A program made the position numbers and the translations under genes. Under the pieces are notes generated by a model that searched no databases, was not told the origin of the DNA, and saw only the letters and a list, made by a program, of their open reading frames with translations. 50,233 nt of DNA from a bacterium (lineage in GTDB: Bacteria; Fidelibacterota; Marinisomatia; Marinisomatales; UBA1611), in NCBI GenBank assembly GCA_004321745.1, contig SGYO01000013.1, forward strand, positions 1 to 50,233, written 5' to 3'. Each line of letters begins with the position of its first letter. Within the stretch, counting starts at the first letter, position 1. Below are positions 11,924 to 47,711 of the stretch, piece after piece.

Positions 11924-14872
11924 ATGAATACAGATAATATGAAACCTTACTTAAGATTATTCAGAACTTTTATTTCCGTAACTGCTATTGTTTTTCTAGT
12001 GAGTAGCTGTGCTAGTGTTCAATTAAATCAAAAAAATTGGGCAGAAAAAACGATAAAGAAATTAACTCTTCGCCAAAAAATTGCCCAGATGATGATCTAT
12101 CGTATGCATCTCAAGTATGCTAGTATAACTCCTCAAAAATGGGATGAAATTAAATCTTTGTTAGATAATGATGGCATTGGAGGCATTCACATTTGGTCCG
12201 GAGATGGATCTAGCGCACTATCGATGTTAAATGAAATTCAAAGAAGGTCAACAATTCCCATTGTGATCGATGCAGACATTGAAAGAGGGCTTGGTCAGCG
12301 TTTTCCTGCAGGAACAGACTTCCCTCCCTTGATGGCAATTACTGCAACGGGGAATCCAAATAATGCTTATGAAGTAGGAGCCATAGTAGCAAAAGAATCT
12401 AGGGCTGCAGGAGTTCAGTGGAACCTTTCACCTGTTGTAGATGTAAATAATAACCCACTAAATCCAATTATCAATACTAGATCTTTTAGCGAAAATCCTG
12501 GAATTGTGAGTGAATATGGTGCACAATACATTCGAGGTTTACAAGAAAATGGCATGATATCGACAGCAAAACATTTTCCAGGGCATGGAGATACTCAAAC
12601 AGATTCTCATAGCTCATTAGCAATGATACCCAGTGATTCATCAAGATTATGGTCCGTTGAATTAAAACCATTTATTGATGTAGCTAATGCAGGCGTAGAT
12701 GCAATTATGATTGCTCATGTACATGCTCCAGATTTTCAGCCAGAATCAGATATTCCAGCTACTCTTAGCAAATTTTGGGTTACCGATATTTTAAAAAATA
12801 AAATAGGGTATAAGGGTATAATAATTACTGATGGAATGGGTATGGGTGGCGTGACGAAAAACTATGCAGATGATTACGCTATTATTGAAGCTGTCAAAGC
12901 TGGGTGTGATGTTATCATTCAGAATTATGATATTGTTGGATCAATTAATGCGATAGAGGATGCAGTTAAAAACAATGAAATATCAATCGAACAAATTAAT
13001 TCTTCTGCTCTTAAAATGCTTAAAATGAAAGAAAATGCAGGATTGCATTTAAATCCATTTGTAGATCTCGATTTTATGATGAAAACAATTGGAATAAAAG
13101 AGCATAAAGAAGCATCGGATAGAATTTCAACTGAGGCAATTACTCTAGTTAAAGATGAAAAAAACCTTTTACCGTTAGATATAGATCTTAAAGATACGTT
13201 ATATGTTTTTGATATATACGATCAGGAGCATAAGCATTCTTTATCCAGTATATCTTCTAGTCTAAAAAGAGAAAGATTTCCAATAAGAACTATTCAAATA
13301 GATGAATCAGATAAAAAACATGTACTAGATGTTATACTAGGTAAGATACCTAAAAACAGCAGAATTTTAATTAATGCTTTTGTTAGTCCTAAAGAGTGGA
13401 AGGATAGAATATTTTTTCCTGATAATGAGACATATTTTGTAAAAGAGTTAATGAGAATTTCTGATAGAGTTATTTTAGTTAGTTTAGGGACTCCTTATTT
13501 GCTAATGGACTTTCCAGATGTATCAACATATTTATGTGCGTATAAAGGAAGCAGTGTTATGCAAAATGCTCTCTATAAAGCTTTAATGGGAAAAGAAAAT
13601 ATCTCAGGAAGACTTCCTATATCTATTCCAAGAATGTATGAGATTGGTTCTGGCTTATTTTTGGAAAAAAGAGTAGATAACCCAATTGTGAAAAAATTTG
13701 AACCCGGGAAATTATTGCTTAGAGTTAGGCCAAAAACTGTTAATGCAAATATTTCAAAAATAGATCAGTTGATGAATCAAGCAATTGCTGAAAATGCTTG
13801 GCCAGGCGCTGTTCTATTAGCTTCTAAAGAAGGAAATATTTTTTATCAAAAAGGTCATGGATATCATACCTATCAGGGCAGAAATATTACGCGCTCCAGT
13901 GATATTTTTGATTTAGCGTCAATAACAAAAACTGTTGCGACTACTTCTTCAATTATGAAGCTTAAAGATTTAGGCAAAATTGACATTAATCAGCCGGTAG
14001 TGCATTATCTGCCTAAATTTAAAGGGAACGATAAAAAATATTTTAATCAAAAATCTAAAATCACTATCAAAGATCTGCTGGCGCATGCATCCGGACTACC
14101 AGCATTCAAGCAATATTACAAGGAGGAAAAAACTAGAGAATTAGTTTTGGAAAGTATATATGATACTTTTCCTATTAAAAGTAATAGAGATACAACTATT
14201 TATTCAGATGTAGGCGCGATCATTTTAGGTGAAATTGTCGAAAAAATTAGTGGTCTTTCTTTAAATGTTTTTGCCGATTCTATGATCTTTAAACCTCTTG
14301 GAATGGGAACGACTTTCTTCAATCCTCCATCAAATAAAATGCGGAGGATAGTTCCTACAGAATTTAAACCTGATGGTACAATTGTACATGGATATGTGCA
14401 TGATGAAAATGCATACAGCTTAGGAGGGGTAGCTGGACATGCTGGTTTATTTTCAACAGCCAAAGATTTAGCTGTTTTTTCGCAAATGATGTTAAATGAT
14501 GGTCTTTATGGATGGAAGAGAATTTTTAAAACAGAGACGGTAAGTGAGTTTACAACTAAAGCTAATGTTGTTGATGGTAGTTCCAGGCTTTTAGGCTGGG
14601 ATAGTCCAGGTGGTTATGCATCCGGAGGAATTTATTTAAGCGATAATAGTTTTGGGCACACTGGTTTTACAGGTACTTCAATGTGGATCGACCCTGACCA
14701 GGGTATAATTGTTATTTTGCTCACAAATGCGGTTCATCCAAATAGGAAAAATAAATCCCCAAAATATTATGATTGGAGACAGAGGATTCATTCTGGTGTC
14801 TATGAATCCTTATCTATTATTAATAAAAATCCAAATTTAAAACCTAGGCCAAGATGGGAAGAGGGTGAATGA
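11924..14872 (+). CDS. Lipoprotein: GH3 hexosaminidase fused to beta-lactamase-fold serine hydrolase
   Basis: The protein has 982 residues. The N-terminus has a signal sequence ending FLVSSC (Cys29), a probable lipobox. Met6 is an alternative start. GH3 part (about 35-390): KHFPGHGDTQTDSH at 216-229 with the Asp-His dyad, and TDGMGMGG with nucleophile Asp303. A GH3 C-terminal-like region runs to about 590. From about 610 comes a class C beta-lactamase/AmpH-like domain, with SITK (Ser666, Lys669) as the nucleophile motif, YSD in the place of the Tyr-x-Asn motif, and HTGFTGT as the third box. Such fusions are known in Bacteroidota. The pairing suggests one enzyme that trims both sugar and peptide of peptidoglycan. 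It is divergent from the salvage operon and overlaps the next gene by four bases (ATGA). Confidence 0.9.
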   Translation: MNTDNMKPYLRLFRTFISVTAIVFLVSSCASVQLNQKNWAEKTIKKLTLRQKIAQMMIYRMHLKYASITPQKWDEIKSLLDNDGIGGIHIWSGDGSSALSMLNEIQRRSTIPIVIDADIERGLGQRFPAGTDFPPLMAITATGNPNNAYEVGAIVAKESRAAGVQWNLSPVVDVNNNPLNPIINTRSFSENPGIVSEYGAQYIRGLQENGMISTAKHFPGHGDTQTDSHSSLAMIPSDSSRLWSVELKPFIDVANAGVDAIMIAHVHAPDFQPESDIPATLSKFWVTDILKNKIGYKGIIITDGMGMGGVTKNYADDYAIIEAVKAGCDVIIQNYDIVGSINAIEDAVKNNEISIEQINSSALKMLKMKENAGLHLNPFVDLDFMMKTIGIKEHKEASDRISTEAITLVKDEKNLLPLDIDLKDTLYVFDIYDQEHKHSLSSISSSLKRERFPIRTIQIDESDKKHVLDVILGKIPKNSRILINAFVSPKEWKDRIFFPDNETYFVKELMRISDRVILVSLGTPYLLMDFPDVSTYLCAYKGSSVMQNALYKALMGKENISGRLPISIPRMYEIGSGLFLEKRVDNPIVKKFEPGKLLLRVRPKTVNANISKIDQLMNQAIAENAWPGAVLLASKEGNIFYQKGHGYHTYQGRNITRSSDIFDLASITKTVATTSSIMKLKDLGKIDINQPVVHYLPKFKGNDKKYFNQKSKITIKDLLAHASGLPAFKQYYKEEKTRELVLESIYDTFPIKSNRDTTIYSDVGAIILGEIVEKISGLSLNVFADSMIFKPLGMGTTFFNPPSNKMRRIVPTEFKPDGTIVHGYVHDENAYSLGGVAGHAGLFSTAKDLAVFSQMMLNDGLYGWKRIFKTETVSEFTTKANVVDGSSRLLGWDSPGGYASGGIYLSDNSFGHTGFTGTSMWIDPDQGIIVILLTNAVHPNRKNKSPKYYDWRQRIHSGVYESLSIINKNPNLKPRPRWEEGE

Positions 14873-37542: not shown

Positions 37543-39363
37543 ATGAATTTAAAATCTAATTTAATTTTATTATTTACGCTGTTAAGCTTTGTTCAGGTTC
37601 CTAGAGGGCAAGAATATAAGATTAGTGGTGCTCAAATTACATCAGGTCAAGTAGCAGCAAGCTCTAATCAATATCGTATTAGTTCTGGGACATCAAGTAT
37701 GACATCTAATCCTACTATATCTGACTCCTTTTCAGTATCTCTAAGTATGATTGGTATTATTCAAACTATAAGTGTGATGCCACCAGATATTAACATAACG
37801 ATGAACAACAACTTGTTTCAGACAAGAACATCAATAAATATAGTTGGTGTGCTTCAAGATGTGAACGGTGTCGCCTCAGCAAATCTTCACCTTCAAAAAG
37901 GAGGAGAAAATGAAGAAATTATTTTACCCATGGTTGCGTTAAATGATACATTATATCAAGTAACTATTCCAGATACGCTTGTAACCGTAAATAATTTCAG
38001 AGCATATATAAGTGGAATTGATAATTTAGAGATTACGGGAAATAGTAAATTATTTTACCCAACTCTATTATATGGTTCGAATGAATTAAATACATCAATA
38101 AAGAATAGCATTTATCCTGATGGAGTTCCTTCCAAAAAATGGAGGATGATCTCTTTTCCAGGAAGTATCAATGATTCAATTATTAGTAGTGCAAAAGATG
38201 ATGACCATGTTTTTTATCAATGGGATGATTCAAATAGTGAGTGGGTTATTCCTAATGTGGTAAAAAGAGCTGAGGCTTATTGGTTTAAACATTTTTATGA
38301 TAATTCCATTCTATTTAAATCAGATTCTGGCACAGCAATTTCTTTGCAACCTTATAAAATTGAATTAAAACAAGGGTGGAATATGATTGGAAGTCCTTTT
38401 GCTTCAACAGTTGAATTTGAAGCTAATTCAATTGAGGTTTCCGATCTATACTATTTTGGTGATAGCACAAATAAAGATGGTTGGTCAGTTGTATTAAAGG
38501 AGATGCAGCCTTGGGCTGGTTATGCAGTACATTCTAGTTCAGACACGTCAAGCATAACACTTAAACCATTTCCGAATGAAAATGTAAATAGGTCATCAGG
38601 AAAAAAAGTAAACCAAGAATGGACTATTCAATTTTTAGTTAAGGAAAAGAATTCCTTTGATAATTCAACTTTGATGGGTAGAAAGGAATCTGCTTTTGAT
38701 GACATTGATTTTTCTGATACTCCCATGTTACCAAAGATCGAAAAGGAGGGCATTAATGCTGCACTATTTTTAAATGGACAAGAAAGCAAAAAATATTCTA
38801 GTGATTTTAGATCAATTGATGCGATAAATGGAGTGTGGGATTTACAAATCTTATCTGAACAAAATGTCGATAATATTGAACTAATGGTAAAAGATATTAT
38901 TTCTTTACCAAAGGGAATTTCCATTGCAATGCTTGATGTGCAAAGGCGTATCGTTTTTACAAATATTTTTTCAAGAAAAATAATTTTTGATAAAATAGGA
39001 GGGCTGGAGTACGAATTCAAAGTAGTAGCTGGTGAATCAGGGTATGTTGATCAAATGATCAAAAATCTTCTAGAAATCATTCCAAATAATTTTTCTTTAA
39101 GTAAAAATTACCCGAATCCATTCAATCCAATAACTAATCTAGATTATTCTATTCCTAAGAGATCAAATGTAACTTTGCGAGTATTTAATATGATGGGACA
39201 AGAAGTGATAACGCTGATAAATGAAAAAAAATCTTATGGAAATTATTCTATTTCCTGGAATGGTTTAGATAGTAAAGGAGTTAATGTAGCATCAGGAGTT
39301 TACTTCGCAGAGCTAAGGAACCGAAATGAAAGAAGAATCACAAAAATGTTGTTAATGAAATAA
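37543..39363 (+). CDS. T9SS-exported surface protein, function unknown
   Basis: The protein has 606 residues with a signal peptide (MNLKSNLILLFTLLSFVQVPRGQ). The mature N-terminus (YKISGAQITSGQVAASSNQYRISSG) is a short repeat-like segment seen in other exported proteins of this style. The middle contains Ig-like beta structure and RAEAYWFKH...QGWNMIGSPFAS, a recurrent feature of T9SS cargo proteins. The C-terminal ~90 residues carry NFSLSKNYPNPFNPITNLDYSIP and end SGVYFAELRNRNERRITKMLLMK, the type-A sorting domain. No enzyme motif is visible. It starts 12 bases after the fibre gene, so the two are probably made together. A part in fibre anchoring or a joint surface coat is plausible. Confidence 0.87.
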   Translation: MNLKSNLILLFTLLSFVQVPRGQEYKISGAQITSGQVAASSNQYRISSGTSSMTSNPTISDSFSVSLSMIGIIQTISVMPPDINITMNNNLFQTRTSINIVGVLQDVNGVASANLHLQKGGENEEIILPMVALNDTLYQVTIPDTLVTVNNFRAYISGIDNLEITGNSKLFYPTLLYGSNELNTSIKNSIYPDGVPSKKWRMISFPGSINDSIISSAKDDDHVFYQWDDSNSEWVIPNVVKRAEAYWFKHFYDNSILFKSDSGTAISLQPYKIELKQGWNMIGSPFASTVEFEANSIEVSDLYYFGDSTNKDGWSVVLKEMQPWAGYAVHSSSDTSSITLKPFPNENVNRSSGKKVNQEWTIQFLVKEKNSFDNSTLMGRKESAFDDIDFSDTPMLPKIEKEGINAALFLNGQESKKYSSDFRSIDAINGVWDLQILSEQNVDNIELMVKDIISLPKGISIAMLDVQRRIVFTNIFSRKIIFDKIGGLEYEFKVVAGESGYVDQMIKNLLEIIPNNFSLSKNYPNPFNPITNLDYSIPKRSNVTLRVFNMMGQEVITLINEKKSYGNYSISWNGLDSKGVNVASGVYFAELRNRNERRITKMLLMK

Positions 39364-40167: not shown

Positions 40168-40452
40168 ATATGAAATTTCTATAAAGATTAATTTTGTGTA
40201 TTCTAACTTTTATAATTCCAGCGTCGTATTCTGGTAAAAACATAATTGTAAGCTAAAAGTAAATCCTTTTAACTTTATATACTTCAAACTATTGTAAATA
40301 ATTTTTACAAGGTTATAACATTGTAAACTCATTGTCTTCCTATATTTATATAGCTAAATTGATTTACAACAATTATAGAGCATTTATGTTCTATTTATAG
40401 GCTTTTTTTAATGTTGTAAAAATTAATAAAAATAAAATACAACAAAATAATA
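40168..40452. promoter_or_regulatory. 285-bp non-coding region with clustered TTGTAAA/TTTACAA half-sites
   Basis: This is the longest gene-free gap in the window and is very A+T-rich. The 7-mer TTGTAAA or its complement TTTACAA occurs five times: 40292-40298, 40304-40310 (inverted), 40321-40327, 40363-40369 (inverted) and 40414-40420. A shorter TTGTAA lies at 40246 and a partial TACAA at 40439. The gene that follows encodes a protein with an N-terminal winged helix, so autoregulation is a natural reading. I see no clear terminator for the upstream gene and no Shine-Dalgarno site before the ATG at 40453. Confidence 0.55.
40292..40310. repeat. Perfect inverted repeat TTGTAAA-TAATT-TTTACAA (operator candidate)
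   Basis: The arms are 7 bp with a 5-bp spacer, so the half-site centres lie 12 bp apart, roughly one helical turn. That spacing suits a dimeric winged-helix regulator. It lies 143 bases before the coiled-coil gene and is the best-formed element of the half-site cluster. Confidence 0.6.
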
Positions 40453-43400
40453 ATGGATTTTGAAAATTTAATATCTAATCTTATAGACCAAAAAGTCATT
40501 AAAGCAATTTCCAAGCCAATACCCAAAAAGATAATTTCATGTATTGGAGGAGATTCTTTTACTGCATCTGAAATTGCGGATAAGATATCTTTCCCAAAAG
40601 AGAAGATTTATTACCATATAAAAAAATTGGTTGCATTTAAAATACTAACGGTTTCAGAAACAAATGAAATTAAAGGTATCATTCAAAAAAAATACAGATT
40701 AGCCGAAATTTCTTCATCATTCAAAAAAGATAGGTTGTATGATGACATACATGAAAATGATTTATACATAAATGAAGAATTAAAAACCAAAATTGTAGAA
40801 AAAGAAACTGCATCAAAATTTGAATATGTTAAGGCTATTGCTAATAAAATGATGGGCAACAGCTCAGCTAGTGAAATTGTAATTCAGAAATATCAGATAA
40901 ATTCTAAGATTAAAAAATTAAGCTCGGTCATTTTTAATACTCGCAATGATATTAACGCAGTTAAAGAAAAGATTGAATCTATCATTACTCAAATATCACT
41001 TTATAATGATTCAGATCAATTATATGCAAATCAAAAAAGACTTATCCAAGAGAATGAACAATTTTCAAAAAGAATAGATACCTATAAAAAAGATATTGCA
41101 TTATCTAATGATAAGATCTCTATTATAAAAAAAAATTACAATGATGAAAAAATTAAACAGAGTATTACAATAAAGGAGTTGCTGACTAAAATTGAAGAGA
41201 CTGAAAAAGAGCTTCTTATTCAATCAAATAAAAAAGATCAAATAGAATCTTATATCAAAAATATTTATGATGGGGATTCCATATTAAAAAATTATGAAAA
41301 GTTTAATTTTAAAAATGATCTTTCAGTTTTAAATATTAAGAAAAAGGATTTAAAAGAAGATATCACAAATAAAAAAATCCAAATAACATTGAGAGATGAA
41401 AAAATAACTCAAATTCAAAAAGCGATAGAACTAATCGCTGCTCAAACTGTTTCCTATGACAATGATTTGAATAATCTTTTACATCAAACGAAACTATTTG
41501 GTTCATCTGTAGATAAGGTTTTAAATAACAATGAATTACTTGAAAAGAACTTGGAAAATGAATTACTAGATCTTAACAATAGAAAAAAAGAGGTTGATGA
41601 TAAATTGATTTTTCTAAATGAAAATATAAGAAGTAATCAGAAACAAATAAGTACTATAAGTAAATCAATTAAGCCGGATCACGCAGAGCTTAAGGGTCTA
41701 AGAGCTAAGCAGGAAAAATTATTGAAAAAACAATCAATAATTAGCTCTGACATTGATTCAATAAGCCAAAATAAAAAACAGTTAGTAAATGCACACAAGG
41801 ATAAAATAGATGAATGCTTTGACTTATTGAAAGAAATTGAAATCGTAATAAAAAAGAATGAAACTTCAAAATTATCAGAACAATTAAAAACGCTTGCACA
41901 AAATAAGAAAAGTCTAAATTTTAAAAAAGACTTGCTTAAAAAGTCTATTAGCTCTTTACAAGAAGAATTATATCAAGACCAGTCTTTTGTTGAAAATTCT
42001 AAAACATTATTTCAAAAAGAATATAAAAAAGAGCTTTCAAAATACGATAGCATAAAGGGTAAAATTAAAAAAAGTGAAGATACAGTATTAGTAATAACGA
42101 GTGAAATTGAGGTTTTAAAAAGTCTGATAGATTTCCATAAAGCCGTCCTAGAATCTTTAAGGCTGTTTGAGAGCGACACATTTAAAATTAATTTTGATTC
42201 TAAAGCTATAGAAAAGAACAATGAGGACAGATCACTGGAAATAATATTAGACAGTTATACTAAAACTTTTAATTGGTCTGCTGCTCAACTAAAAAAAGCC
42301 AGCTCTAATTTTCATGAAAATAAGTTTATAAAGAACTTAGATGATAACGATATTTTAAAAGAATCAAAAATAGTGATCGATATATCTAGTTCACTACTTT
42401 CAATTCCCCAAAAACTTGAAGAATTAAATTTAAAATTAATTGAAACTAGAAAAAGCTCAATATCTTATTTAAAAGAACAAAATATTTTTCAGTCATGTAA
42501 GGAAGAAATAAAGACGTTAAATAAAGAGAAAAGTGATTTAAAGAAAAATGAAAGGCAATTAGTTTACCAAATTAGATCATGCGAAAAATCAATAAAAGTT
42601 TTAAATAAAGAAAAATTAAAAAATGAGGAATTATTAGAAAATATTCAGACATCAATTTCCAAGTTAAAAGAAAAATCTAAATTATTAAAAAATAATAAGA
42701 TCGATTACGATTTTAAACATGTTGATGAAATTAAAAACATAGATAAAACAATAATTAATGTAGAAGCAGCAAATGAAGTATTAATAGAAAGCTTAAAAGA
42801 GCTGGACATAATAAATCAGAAAAGAGAAAAAAAATTAAAGATTTTCGAAAAATTGATTCATAGTATTGAAAAAGAAAGCGATAAAATTGATTCTGTTAAT
42901 CATAAAATCAAATTAATTGAATTTGAAGACAAGAATATTAGTGAGCAAAAAAGTGCAGCGATTCAGAAAATAAGACTAGATATAGATAATTATGAAAGTT
43001 CGATAATTAAAAAGAAATCATGGATTAGTAGTTCACGTTTTGAGGAAAATCAAATTCTTGGTGAAATCAGATTATGGAAAAAAGAATTAAATAGGTTGAA
43101 TGCAGAGAAAAAATTAATAAACAATGAAATTGAAAAATCACAGCAAGTTACGATTCAAAAAGAGGAAGAGGCAACATCTCGCAGAGACCACGTAATAAAT
43201 AAAATAAGAAATGAAATGGATAAAGAATATGATCAAGAAATAATAAAGCAAAGCAAACTAAAGAAAATTTATTTAGATAACAGATCAAAAATACTTGATG
43301 AAGAAAATAAGATCATAACTGTCATAAAAATAAAAGAGAAAAACTTACTTGATCTGCATAAAAAAATATCTAGAGTGATAGAGAAAATTCAAAAATTCAA

Positions 43401-46206
43401 TTTAACTAAAAAAAGAGAATTAGATAAATTTGAAAGAAAGATAAACCAATGTAAGGTATCAAAAGAAAAAATATCTTCTCGGCAAATCACTTTTAATCAG
43501 CAATTAAATGTAGAATTATCCTTGTGTAAGGATGTTGAAGTAAAACTAAAGGATAAAATACTTGAGGCTGCTTCTGAAGTAAAAGCATTAGAGGATAAAA
43601 TAAGTTTTAAGTCTGGTAGTACATATGCAACTTTCATGAAGCAAACTATAGATATAGATGAAAGCCAAGCCAGCGTTTTAGTTAGTGATTCCATTTTAAA
43701 TCATCAAAATTCTATTTCTCTCATTAAGAAAGATTTACGCTTTGAAAAACAAGAATTATCAAAAAAAATATCGATTCATAAAAAAGATATAAAAAAAATA
43801 AGATCAAAAATATCTTTGGCGAAAAAAGATATATTTACATTAAACAAAAAAATTAGTGCTACCGAAAAAAGTCAAAGAAAGTTTAATCTGCCATTGAGTA
43901 AACTCATTCAATCAAAGGAATTACTGGACAAGGAGAAAGACCTTGCTGAGAAATCTTTCATTAGCCTGCAGGTAAAGGAACAAGAAAATTTAGATGCTTT
44001 AGTTCAAAAAAGAACTGCCTTGGAGGACGAGTATAATAAGAATGCTAAAAAATTAGATAAAATCTACAAAGCAAAATTGAACGAGTTGAAAAATAGAATT
44101 AAAAACCAAGAAGATTTAAGATTAATGAAAATAAACCAGAACTCTAGAAATTTGAAAAAGGTTCTTGAAAAAACAGATCAAAGAATGAATAGAATTGATC
44201 AACTTATTGCAACCGGTGAGGAAGTAATAAAAGAATCTTATTTAGCTATTGAGGAAATAACTAAAAAAAGGAATCAATTGGGTTCTACAATTAAAGTTTA
44301 TGATAAAAAGATATTCATGCTTGATAACAAGTTAGAAAAGACAAAATATGGATTAAAGATGAAAAAAAAATCCAATATCAAAAAGTTAGATAAGCTGAAA
44401 AATCAAATCGAAGATTCTGAAACAAATAAACTAAATCTTGGCAAAGATAAAAATGTAATAAAGCTAGAATTAAAATCTTTTGATAATAAGTCTATAAACT
44501 TAGGGAGAGACTATTCTCAAGTGGAATATGATATAAGTCAAAATAAGAAAATGGTCGAAGATTTAAATCAAAGAAAAATCAAATTGAATAAAGATAAAAG
44601 TATAAATGATAATTATACAGAGCATTCAGAAAAAGAACTATTTGATAGCTTAAACAATTTAGAAAAAAGGTTTGAAAATTCAAGAGAGGATTACTCTAGT
44701 TTAATAAGTGAGCTTAATACTCTTGATAAAAATAAAGCTGCATTAGAAAAAGACGCAAAAATGAGCAGGTTAATATTATCAAAAACAGAAAAAGAAATTT
44801 TAGAAAAACTTTCTGATTTTGATTTATTTAGTAAAAAATTACAATCTGCAAGAAATAGTCATACTCAAAATTTTTCATTAACCCAAAAAATGTTGAAATC
44901 GCTGCAGAAAGAGTATGAATTACTCTTTTCTAGTTCAAGAATAATAAAAGAAAATAAAAAACTAGTTTTATCTTACACAGACACATTAATTAATGATAAA
45001 AATAAAACTTCTGAACTATATAATATTCGTTATAAAGAAGGTGAGAGCAGAGCGGAAACATTAAAAAAAATGAATGAAAACTTTCATATCCTAGAAAGAG
45101 AGTCTGAGCAAAAAAATAAACAACTTCACATTAAAAAAGATGTAAACGAAAATGAATTGCAAAATATATTGAAAGAATTAGATGACAATGATAACAAGAT
45201 TTTTGAACTAAAAACTTTAAAGAAATCAGAAACTCATCAATTGAAAATTTATAAAGATCGAAAAAGTAGTCTAGTTAAAAAAATTGATACTTTAAATCGT
45301 CAGCATAAAAAAGATGTTCCTGTTATAGATGACCTTTTATCAAAAAAAGAAAAAACATTATCAAATTTAGATTCAAATCTTAAAAGGTGTTCTAATCGTA
45401 TTGACACCTTAGAGAGATCATTGCTACCAAGAAAAAAAGAACTAGAAATGATTGAAGACCGTAATAAAAATGACTTTTTAGATCTAGAGGACCTTAAAAT
45501 TGAAAAAAAGAATGTTGATTCAAAAATTAATAATAGTATTGGGGCAATACGGAAAATAAAAAAGACCATTAAGCATGATACAAAAAAAATTAATTCTGAA
45601 AAAACTAAGAATGAAAATTCTATTCAGAACTTAAAATTAAATCTAGAGCAAAATAACAAATCGGCAGAAACTTTAAGGAAAGATTTAGAAAATAGCATTC
45701 AAATTAAAGATAGTTTAACTAATGAGTTAAAGAGTCAAATTAAAGAAAAAGATAAAATTAAAGCTAAAATAGGTACTGTGAAAAATCGTTTAGATTCTAG
45801 CAAGGATCTTAAAAAATTAATGATGGAGCATAAATCCTTGGAAGAAGAAGTGAAAAATATGAACCTAAAATTAAATCAGTTTCATGAAAATTTTTCAGCT
45901 CTTAGTGTTGGTCTAAATGGACTAAAGCAAATTTATCAAGAAAACATCGCTCCAATTGAGAAGAATATTTTGGACAAAGAATATGAAGTCTTGAAAGATA
46001 TTGATGGGATGAAAGAAAATGAAAAAGTGATTAAGGATTATACTTTAAGGATTAAACAAGCACCATCAAAACTTAAGAGCTTAGATATTCAATACAAGGA
46101 TCAAAATAGAACGAAATTCAAATTGGAACTTAAACTAAAAGAATCTATAAGAAGTTTAGAGATGTTAAAAAAACGTTCTGCAATGTTTGATTCTTCAATG
46201 ATGTAA
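40453..46206 (+). CDS. Giant coiled-coil protein with N-terminal winged-helix DNA-binding domain
   Basis: The protein has 1917 residues. Residues 15-85 read as an ArsR/TrmB-type winged helix: [23 protein letters not shown], then the recognition-helix-like [20 protein letters not shown] and a wing ending QKKYRLAEI. From about 150 to 1890 the sequence is nearly continuous Lys/Glu/Ile/Leu/Ser/Asn heptad coiled coil, broken by a few Pro or Gly points (near [34 protein letters not shown]). There is no signal peptide or transmembrane helix. No Walker A (GxxxxGK[ST]) or ABC signature (LSGG) is present, so it is not SMC, MukB or Rad50. A role in chromosome organisation, or tethering of DNA to a distant partner, is inference. 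RNase HI starts ten bases downstream. Confidence 0.85.
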
Positions 46207-46216
46207 ATATAGTTTA

Positions 46217-46654
46217 ATGACGAACAAAGTAGAAATATTCACTGATGGCGCTTGTAAAGGTAACCCAGGACCAGGAGGTTGGGGCGCTATACTAAGGTAT
46301 GGTACAACTGAGAAAGAAATTTATGGTGCTAGTAAGAATACAACTAATAATATCATGGAGTTAACTGCTGTTATAGAATCTTTAAAAAATTTAAAAAAGC
46401 CTTGTGAATTAATTATTACCACTGATTCAAAATATGTAAAAAATGGAATAACTGAATGGATTCATAATTGGAAAAAAAATGGATGGAGGACTGCTGCAAA
46501 AAAAGAAGTAAAAAATAAAGAGCTATGGATTGAACTAGACTCTCTCATTCAAATTCATTCAATTAGTTGGGATTGGGTAAAAGGTCACTCAGGACATCCT
46601 GAGAATGAGCGAGCTGATTTGCTAGCAAACGTAGCAATAGAAAAATTAAAATAA
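46217..46654 (+). CDS. rnhA: Ribonuclease HI
   Basis: This 145-residue enzyme matches the usual bacterial length. All catalytic residues fall at the same numbers as in E. coli: Asp10 ([14 protein letters not shown]), Glu48 (NNIMELTA), Asp70 (TTDSKYV), His124 (KGHSGH) and Asp134 (NERADLLA). It degrades the RNA strand of RNA-DNA hybrids (R-loops, Okazaki primers) in the cytoplasm, using Mg2+. The basic handle region ([18 protein letters not shown]) is present. It lies ten bases after the giant coiled-coil gene and has no evident Shine-Dalgarno site, so it is probably cotranscribed with it. Confidence 0.97.
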
Positions 46655-46679: not shown

Positions 46680-47711
46680 TTGCAATTAAGAAATTTATCT
46701 AACGTTTCCAATATTGACCTAAGGTCAGAAAATGAATTCAAAAAAGGTTCTATTCCTCGAAGTGTAAATATACCAATTTTAAATAACGATCAATTCAAAA
46801 AGGTAGGGATTGAGTATAAAAAAAATGGAAGTGATGCTGCTGTAGCTTTAGGCCATTCATTGGTTAAAGGATCATTAAAGGAAGAGTTGATTTACTATTG
46901 GACTGAGCATTTGAAAAAAAATCCAGAATGTTTACTGTATTGTTTTCGTGGGGGTATGAGGTCTGAAATAGCAGTTAAGTGGCTAAATGGGTGTGGTGTA
47001 AAAGTAAACAGATTAAAGGGAGGATATAAAAATTTTAGAAATTGGGTGATTTCGCAACATTTAGATATAGAAAATTATATTAAAGATTGGATAATAATTG
47101 GTGGATTGACAGGTTCAGGGAAAACAAATTTTTTGCGTTCTTTTAAAGAGTCAATAGATCTAGAGCAAATTGCTAATCATAGAGGATCTGCTTTTGGTGT
47201 TAGGGATAGTGGACAGCCTACTCAATCAAATTTTGAGAATATTTTAACTCTAGATTATTTGAATCACAAATATGAGAAATTGATTCTTGAAGATGAAAGT
47301 AGAACAATAGGTAGAACTGGCTTACCTGGGTTTTGGTATCAAAAAATGCAAAGTTCAAAGCTTGTAATTTTGGAGGTTGATGATGATAAAAGAGCTGAAA
47401 ACATATATTATGAATATGTATATGATGAAATAAATAATGGGACTAGCGAAGATAATCTATTAGAAAAATATTTAGGTTCATTGAATAATATCAAAAGAAG
47501 ATTAGGGAATGTAGTTTATGATAATATTAAAGATTTAATGAAGAGTGCATTTCATCAAAATGAAAAAGAAATTCATAAGGAATGGATCTTGAGATTACTA
47601 ACTAGTTATTATGATAAAATGTATAGTTATAAACTAGATATGCGAAAAGATTTCGTTGTTCATAAAGGCGAGATAGAGTCATGCAGAGATTATATTAATG
47701 CTATGCTCTAG
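46680..47711 (+). CDS. selU: tRNA 2-selenouridine synthase
   Basis: The protein has 343 residues starting at TTG. No ATG occurs in frame before the conserved part. The N-terminal rhodanese domain holds the active cysteine in YCFRGGMRS (Cys88). The P-loop domain has GLTGSGKT at 142-149 and the family-specific ANHRGSAFG. The enzyme (also called MnmH) replaces sulfur with selenium, via a geranylated intermediate, at the wobble 2-thiouridine of Lys, Glu and Gln tRNAs, using selenophosphate made by SelD. No selD is in this window. The 3' end overlaps that of the convergent SulP gene by 11 bases. It is a few bases downstream of rnhA and likely in the same transcript. Confidence 0.93.
   Translation: MQLRNLSNVSNIDLRSENEFKKGSIPRSVNIPILNNDQFKKVGIEYKKNGSDAAVALGHSLVKGSLKEELIYYWTEHLKKNPECLLYCFRGGMRSEIAVKWLNGCGVKVNRLKGGYKNFRNWVISQHLDIENYIKDWIIIGGLTGSGKTNFLRSFKESIDLEQIANHRGSAFGVRDSGQPTQSNFENILTLDYLNHKYEKLILEDESRTIGRTGLPGFWYQKMQSSKLVILEVDDDKRAENIYYEYVYDEINNGTSEDNLLEKYLGSLNNIKRRLGNVVYDNIKDLMKSAFHQNEKEIHKEWILRLLTSYYDKMYSYKLDMRKDFVVHKGEIESCRDYINAML

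Follow-up and report, generated by a model that had tools for sequence, protein, structure and literature searches.

A giant winged-helix coiled-coil protein of Neomarinimicrobiota, its candidate operator and its type IV pilus relatives

The giant gene and its surroundings

The DNA analysed here (the window, 50,233 nucleotides) comes from a Candidatus Neomarinimicrobiota (SAR406) bacterium whose assembly amounts to 1.75 Mb in 40 contigs. It carries an open reading frame for a protein of 1917 amino acids, found where the initial annotation had placed it. The features at this locus are the following:

40304–40327, no strand: 24-bp palindrome TTTACAAGGTTATAACATTGTAAA, self-complementary at 22 of 24 positions, candidate self-operator (upstream alignments)
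40364–40369, no strand: further putative half-site TTACAA; others are GTTGTA at 40413 and TACAAC at 40438
40453–46206, + strand: winged-helix and coiled-coil protein, 1917 amino acids, ATG start (orthologues L057, L022/L060, L023/L061, L024/L054)
40489–40701, + strand: winged-helix domain, residues 13–83, with recognition-helix motif (AlphaFold2 and alignment)
40864–42162, + strand: coil segment, residues 138–570 (predicted helix, coil score)
42163–42348, + strand: first conserved break, residues 571–632 (pLDDT <50, low coil score)
42349–43599, + strand: coil segment, residues 633–1049 (predicted helix, coil score)
43600–43659, + strand: second conserved break and candidate hinge, residues 1050–1069 (lowest coil score in the family, profile match)
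43660–46203, + strand: coil segment, residues 1070–1917, without PilN or membrane span (coil score, hydropathy)
46217–46654, + strand: rnhA (RNase H), 10 bp downstream of the giant gene (PF00075, E=1.4e-50)
46680–47711, + strand: rhodanese-domain protein (PF00581)

Elsewhere in the window, at 33–2438 and 37543–39363, lie genes for secreted proteins with C-terminal Por_Secre_tail/FlgD_ig sorting domains, which suggest type IX secretion.

The winged helix proposed near the N-terminus is borne out by the AlphaFold2 model of residues 1–1195, whose predicted N-terminal topology (H13-19 H22-31 H38-44 H49-61 E65-73 E76-83, pLDDT 73–85) is that of a winged helix, with the helices, recognition helix and beta wing of the ArsR/HTH_20 fold. 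Confidence in the models was good for this domain and moderate for PilM (see below), and they say nothing firm on coil pairing. The Pfam match of the window protein to HTH_20 (E=7e-5) stays under the curated cut-off, which the compact relative L041 clears (PF12840, E=1.9e-9). This domain is the most conserved large part within what we define here as the Neomarinimicrobiota wHTH-giant family, whose hallmarks, an FP[KR]..IYYH[IL]-type winged helix, a collinear coil and an upstream palindrome, are all found in the window protein. Neither an N-terminal fold of another kind nor a link of the coil to a secreted or tape-measure family came to light.

The rest of the chain has a clear coiled-coil character, with a dominant periodicity of 3.53 and a heptad score of 0.585, where shuffled sequences give 0.403 (sd of means 0.009). 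The coil had been described as nearly uninterrupted, which its heptad pattern supports but the breaks at residues 571–632 and 1050–1069 do not; because both are conserved, the continuous rod of about a quarter of a micrometre that had been envisaged is not supported. A hairpin of roughly half of 250 nm is as possible for this coil as a continuous rod, and when its coil score was searched for mirror symmetry, as expected of a hairpin, the best centres fell away from the candidate hinge. The absence of ATPase motifs was confirmed by motif search, neither Walker A nor LSGG being present in the window protein, and so was that of membrane segments, since its highest 19-residue Kyte-Doolittle mean is only 1.04.

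The gene is under purifying selection. Indeed, the orthologue L057, which comes from a second record of this group, has the same length and is 93% identical, and dN/dS between the two is 0.19 over the whole gene, 0.10 in the winged helix and 0.07 at residues 1040–1090, around the second break; the window gene has therefore been maintained. Besides the window protein, four full or partial window-type orthologues (L057, L022, L023 and L024) have winged helix and coil alone, and a full-length window-type gene also occurs in other species and in a second genus. The order giant-rnhA-rhodanese-SulP is repeated in G002 and G010 (the second genus), the contig ends in G001 and G005 are consistent with it, and rhodanese orthologues (69–73% identical) are found only in genomes with the rnhA-type giant. 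The suggested connection with rnhA thus holds as a conserved neighbourhood but is probably only positional, because relatives in pilus operons have no adjacent rnhA.

A palindrome upstream of the giant genes

The window palindrome contains, at 40314–40325, an 11/12 match to TACAAYRTTGTA, and palindromes of this type lie just upstream of giant genes in four families. The sequence is exact ahead of the giant genes of L030, L034, L038, L041, L081 and L040, and matches at 11 of 12 positions in most others. Across the order, each of 130 genomes has 0–3 exact copies, and the reversed control is about as frequent. Of the ten exact sites in eight giant-bearing genomes, seven precede the giant gene or its parA-led operon, and G057 adds one. 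By our own arithmetic, with less than one such site per 2-Mb genome, the probability that one falls by chance within a 350-bp target is about one in ten thousand per genome. Part of the upstream sequences supplied the motif and are therefore not independent tests; G059, G038 and G057 came to light only once the pattern had been fixed, while the remaining genomes helped to define it.

In the rnhA type, five genomes from at least two genera share a conserved ACAA-N10-TTGT-like palindrome at −146 to −150. Its 20-bp form is matched perfectly at a single place in the window genome (G000), the next best sites, with 3 mismatches, being at background level. One-mismatch copies of the 12-mer are not enriched in the same genome (26 versus 47 in the control). 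The site is absent upstream of relatives with a different recognition helix (L074-L077), and the palindrome was not seen upstream of L035 or L075. For the winged-helix domains of L062 and L047, the candidate DNA sequences are TACAACGTTGTA/TACAATGTTGTA.

The simplest reading is that the window palindrome is likely the self-operator of the winged helix. These alignments and counts support one near-unique, specific candidate DNA site for the window protein, and make autoregulation its best-supported putative role on DNA. A general role in organising the nucleoid, which had also been put forward, is not supported, because the genome offers one candidate site rather than many. The ArsR-type HTH_20 and SdpR-like autorepressors have the same type of winged helix and a palindromic site in their own promoter region; however, they are proteins of about 100 amino acids without a coil, and the window protein scores below the HTH_20 family cut-off. 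Against a self-operator, another regulator could use the palindrome, the window 12-mer matches at only 11 of 12 positions, its one-mismatch copies are not enriched, L035 and L075 show no site, and a coil of 1800 residues would be superfluous in a plain autorepressor.

Two further observations concern upstream regions. At L040:1028-2240 (G059), the 5' end of the winged-helix sequence and the operator are tandemly repeated about three times in units of about 350 bp with decayed frames, which is either an array of sites or an assembly artefact. The pilus-type giants described below share a conserved leader block 150 nt upstream (L031 ~14610-14705 on the − strand, with equivalents in L025-L038), made of a promoter-like CTTGTAA-N17-ATAAATT and then AATTACTTTTTCCGAGGTAATCAATGATGTGGAGTC with an invariant hairpin; its part CCGAGGTAA is found again ahead of the parA-giant operon of L036. 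RNAalifold folds this leader into a hairpin which is invariant and without covariation, and Rfam gave no match in the window and five relatives, leader block included.

Pilus-type relatives and the origin of the window protein

The main clue to the origin and function of the window protein lies in relatives that the initial annotation did not include. Its N-terminus has relatives in 22 of 61 close genomes, and the N-terminal profile matches in 45 of the 245 genomes of the phylum, every strong match falling inside one order. Ten archaeal loci and one from Bacillota, retrieved by a degenerate scan, were set aside as ordinary winged helices on the strength of weak identity, the context being viewed for the Bacillota locus alone. 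Within the order, the same winged helix heads membrane proteins of ~700–2800 amino acids (open reading frames of 804–2785), encoded first in operons resembling those of type IV pili or type II secretion, where the giant gene occupies the usual position of pilM plus pilN. It is followed by a protein with one transmembrane segment (PilN/O-like), a second such protein with weak GspB/CdsD similarity (GspB/PilP-like) and a secretin, and in many of these operons additionally by a receiver domain, PilB with MshEN (MshEN-T2SSE), PilC and pilins.

The domain order in these relatives is winged helix, linker, PilM, NLLP motif, membrane helix and PilN, in some of them with a giant coil after PilM. In its compact form (L041/L062, 804 amino acids) the chain consists of winged helix, acidic linker, PilM, LNLLP, membrane helix and PilN. 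The PilM part is matched by the NCBIfam family Amuc_1101 PilM-like (E=3.5e-7) and, in a profile comparison with the PDB, by Myxococcus PilM (3jc8, E=1.1e-6); the ten best Foldseek matches of a relative's PilM part are all PilM chains (5eoy, E=2.9e-15). The matches of PilN to Pfam are weak (E 0.002–0.005, below the cut-off), the PilN part of the compact form is predicted as a long helix with an alpha/beta end, and an NLLP-type motif followed by a membrane helix is present in 12 pilus-type giants. The coil between PilM and the PilN motif measures 1369–1382 residues in the window's family (f1) and 1974 in L029 (f8); in f1 it aligns with <1% gaps at 44% mean identity, and its length is therefore constrained.

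The architecture varies within the order. In f7 (L036, L039), ~1640 helical residues stand ahead of the winged helix; a ParA/MinD-like ATPase gene precedes the giant there (L036:18451-19323, L039:10960-11832), and the only exact palindromes of these two genomes lie upstream of that gene. Four other families have PilM-PilN fusions without a recognisable winged helix, in most cases preceded by a gene judged ExeA-like on visual inspection, and G010, of another genus, carries both a window-type and a pilus-type giant. In the pilus-type giants an Arg-rich linker of RRR/DRR repeats joins winged helix and PilM (L031 ~130–200 and equivalents) and is absent from the window type. Stand-alone proteins of 193 amino acids with a similar winged helix occur in other families of the order (L055, L056, L082, L087), the genes of L055, L056 and L087 being divergent from a larger gene.

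Among the closest known systems are GspL of type II secretion and PilM-PilN of type IVa pili, PilMN being considered the counterpart of GspL (PMC4471445). The pilus-type relatives likewise join a PilM fold, NLLP, a membrane helix and PilN in one chain, followed by genes for PilO-like, PilP-like and secretin proteins, whereas neither PilM nor PilN is present in the window protein. To our knowledge, neither GspL nor PilM has a winged helix or a coil of more than 1000 residues. The literature searched contained no GspL or PilM with either, no open-access description of a giant coil and a head binding specific DNA sequences combined in one pilus assembly protein, and nothing relevant on giant bacterial coiled-coil proteins.

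By BLAST alone, the match between window type and pilus type is confined to the winged helix. However, hhalign aligned the two coils collinearly over ~800 columns with a score of 73.8 (E=3.5e-7), while a control with the coil reversed scored 32. The global path runs from window residues ~377–1712 to L031 580–1895, with the second break collinear with L031 ~1235–1266; profile matches of the two breaks taken alone are weak, and only the full collinear comparison is convincing. Before about residue 377 the window coil is unmatched by the pilus-type coil and occupies the place of PilM; as a whole, the coil spans the positions where PilM and PilN would stand. Indeed, no PilM actin-like fold was found on the window protein, the A2 profile matching only its N-terminal winged-helix part, and the NLLP motif, membrane helix and PilN domain present in the pilus-type relatives are missing from it. 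Its gene lies outside any pilus operon, ahead of rnhA, whereas the pilus-type genes head such operons. No PilM/PilN fusion gave a profile match in the seven genomes of the window genus (G000-G006), and the 533–572-residue secretin of the pilus-type operon is missing from them; several of these genomes are incomplete, and, all genomes being fragmentary environmental assemblies, gene losses in the window genus rest on incomplete genomes.

Comparison of these sequences shows a shared winged helix and a collinear coil, and the absence of PilM, membrane helix and PilN from the window protein. A staged series (PilM-PilN fusion; addition of the winged helix; addition of the giant coil; loss of PilM and PilN) can be seen directly in the genomes, and we infer that PilM-PilN fusion, then winged helix, then coil is the simplest order of events.

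Autoregulator, scaffold or tether

We moderately favour the view that the window protein is a soluble orphan or descendant of a pilus-base giant (of the type IV pilus inner-membrane complex), with a self-operator bound by a winged-helix dimer. The dimeric winged helix would most likely bind the palindrome at 40304–40327 in its own promoter region and control its own gene, probably also rnhA behind it, a well-supported reading. The dimerised coil might form a long cytoplasmic arm or scaffold, and the self-bound protein might conceivably fasten the locus that encodes it to a partner structure at the far end; alternatively, the coil might fold back at residues 1050–1069 into an SMC-like hairpin. 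The contact between PilM and PilN known in other pili (PMC4471445) suggests a fold-back of the intervening coil in the pilus type; extended to the window protein, a fold-back is only an analogy.

With a DNA-binding head at a near-unique site, the window protein may connect one place on the DNA with a large structure of the cell, and a tethering role is possible. RacA of Bacillus subtilis is such a DNA-to-membrane tether (PMC6593407). Like the window protein it combines a DNA-binding head with a coil, a likeness of layout for which we claim no homology. RacA is small, has a MerR-like head and many binding sites, and uses DivIVA, in all of which it differs from the window protein. That the winged helix holds a specific site while the coil reaches a partner at the membrane or pole (the pilus base in pilus-type relatives) is a possibility to which we give only secondary weight: winged helix and coil share one chain, there is one near-unique palindrome per genome, the pilus-type relatives carry a membrane-bound PilN on the same chain and in one family a ParA-like gene lies ahead of the giant, but the only candidate site is within the protein's own promoter region, where autoregulators usually bind, and the window protein has no membrane anchor.

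Winged helices can also bind proteins, and the window protein could be a purely cytoplasmic scaffold next to a palindrome belonging to another regulator. We consider this rather improbable, as presence of the palindrome tracks the type of recognition helix across families and the wing and recognition helix are intact in the AlphaFold2 model. An SMC/Rad50/MukB-like protein with an unrecognised head, which would organise the nucleoid through extrusion or bridging, is very unlikely. These proteins resemble the window protein in their long coil with a central break, which could here be a hinge, and in their link to DNA, and NCBIfam SMC_prok_B matches its coil (E=5e-7); however, the match falls on arm positions 706–963 and not on heads, the closest relatives are PilM-PilN fusions, and, the window protein having no ATPase heads and neither the Walker A nor the ABC signature motif that mark the terminal heads of SMC-type ATPases, membership was rejected. 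Although PilM and PilN are gone and the gene stands outside the pilus operon, a functionless, decaying remnant is hardly credible and a pseudogene is contradicted by the purifying selection, the open frame being of equal length in L057 (dN/dS 0.19), full length being kept in other species and a second genus, and operator and neighbours being conserved.

Returning to the soluble descendant of a pilus-base giant, in the pilus-type relatives the pilus base would in this way regulate itself, as membrane-bound one-component regulators do; with the membrane part gone from the window protein, only autoregulation and a scaffold or tether role remain. We also put forward, as a speculative proposal, that the type IV pilus base of this order is tied to one chromosomal address through a DNA-bound winged helix, PilM, a coil of 1300–2000 residues and an inner-membrane PilN, the window protein being the same tether freed and reused. 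The family offers a one-site DNA target, and suggests that the pilus base may control genes or that DNA may be attached to it.
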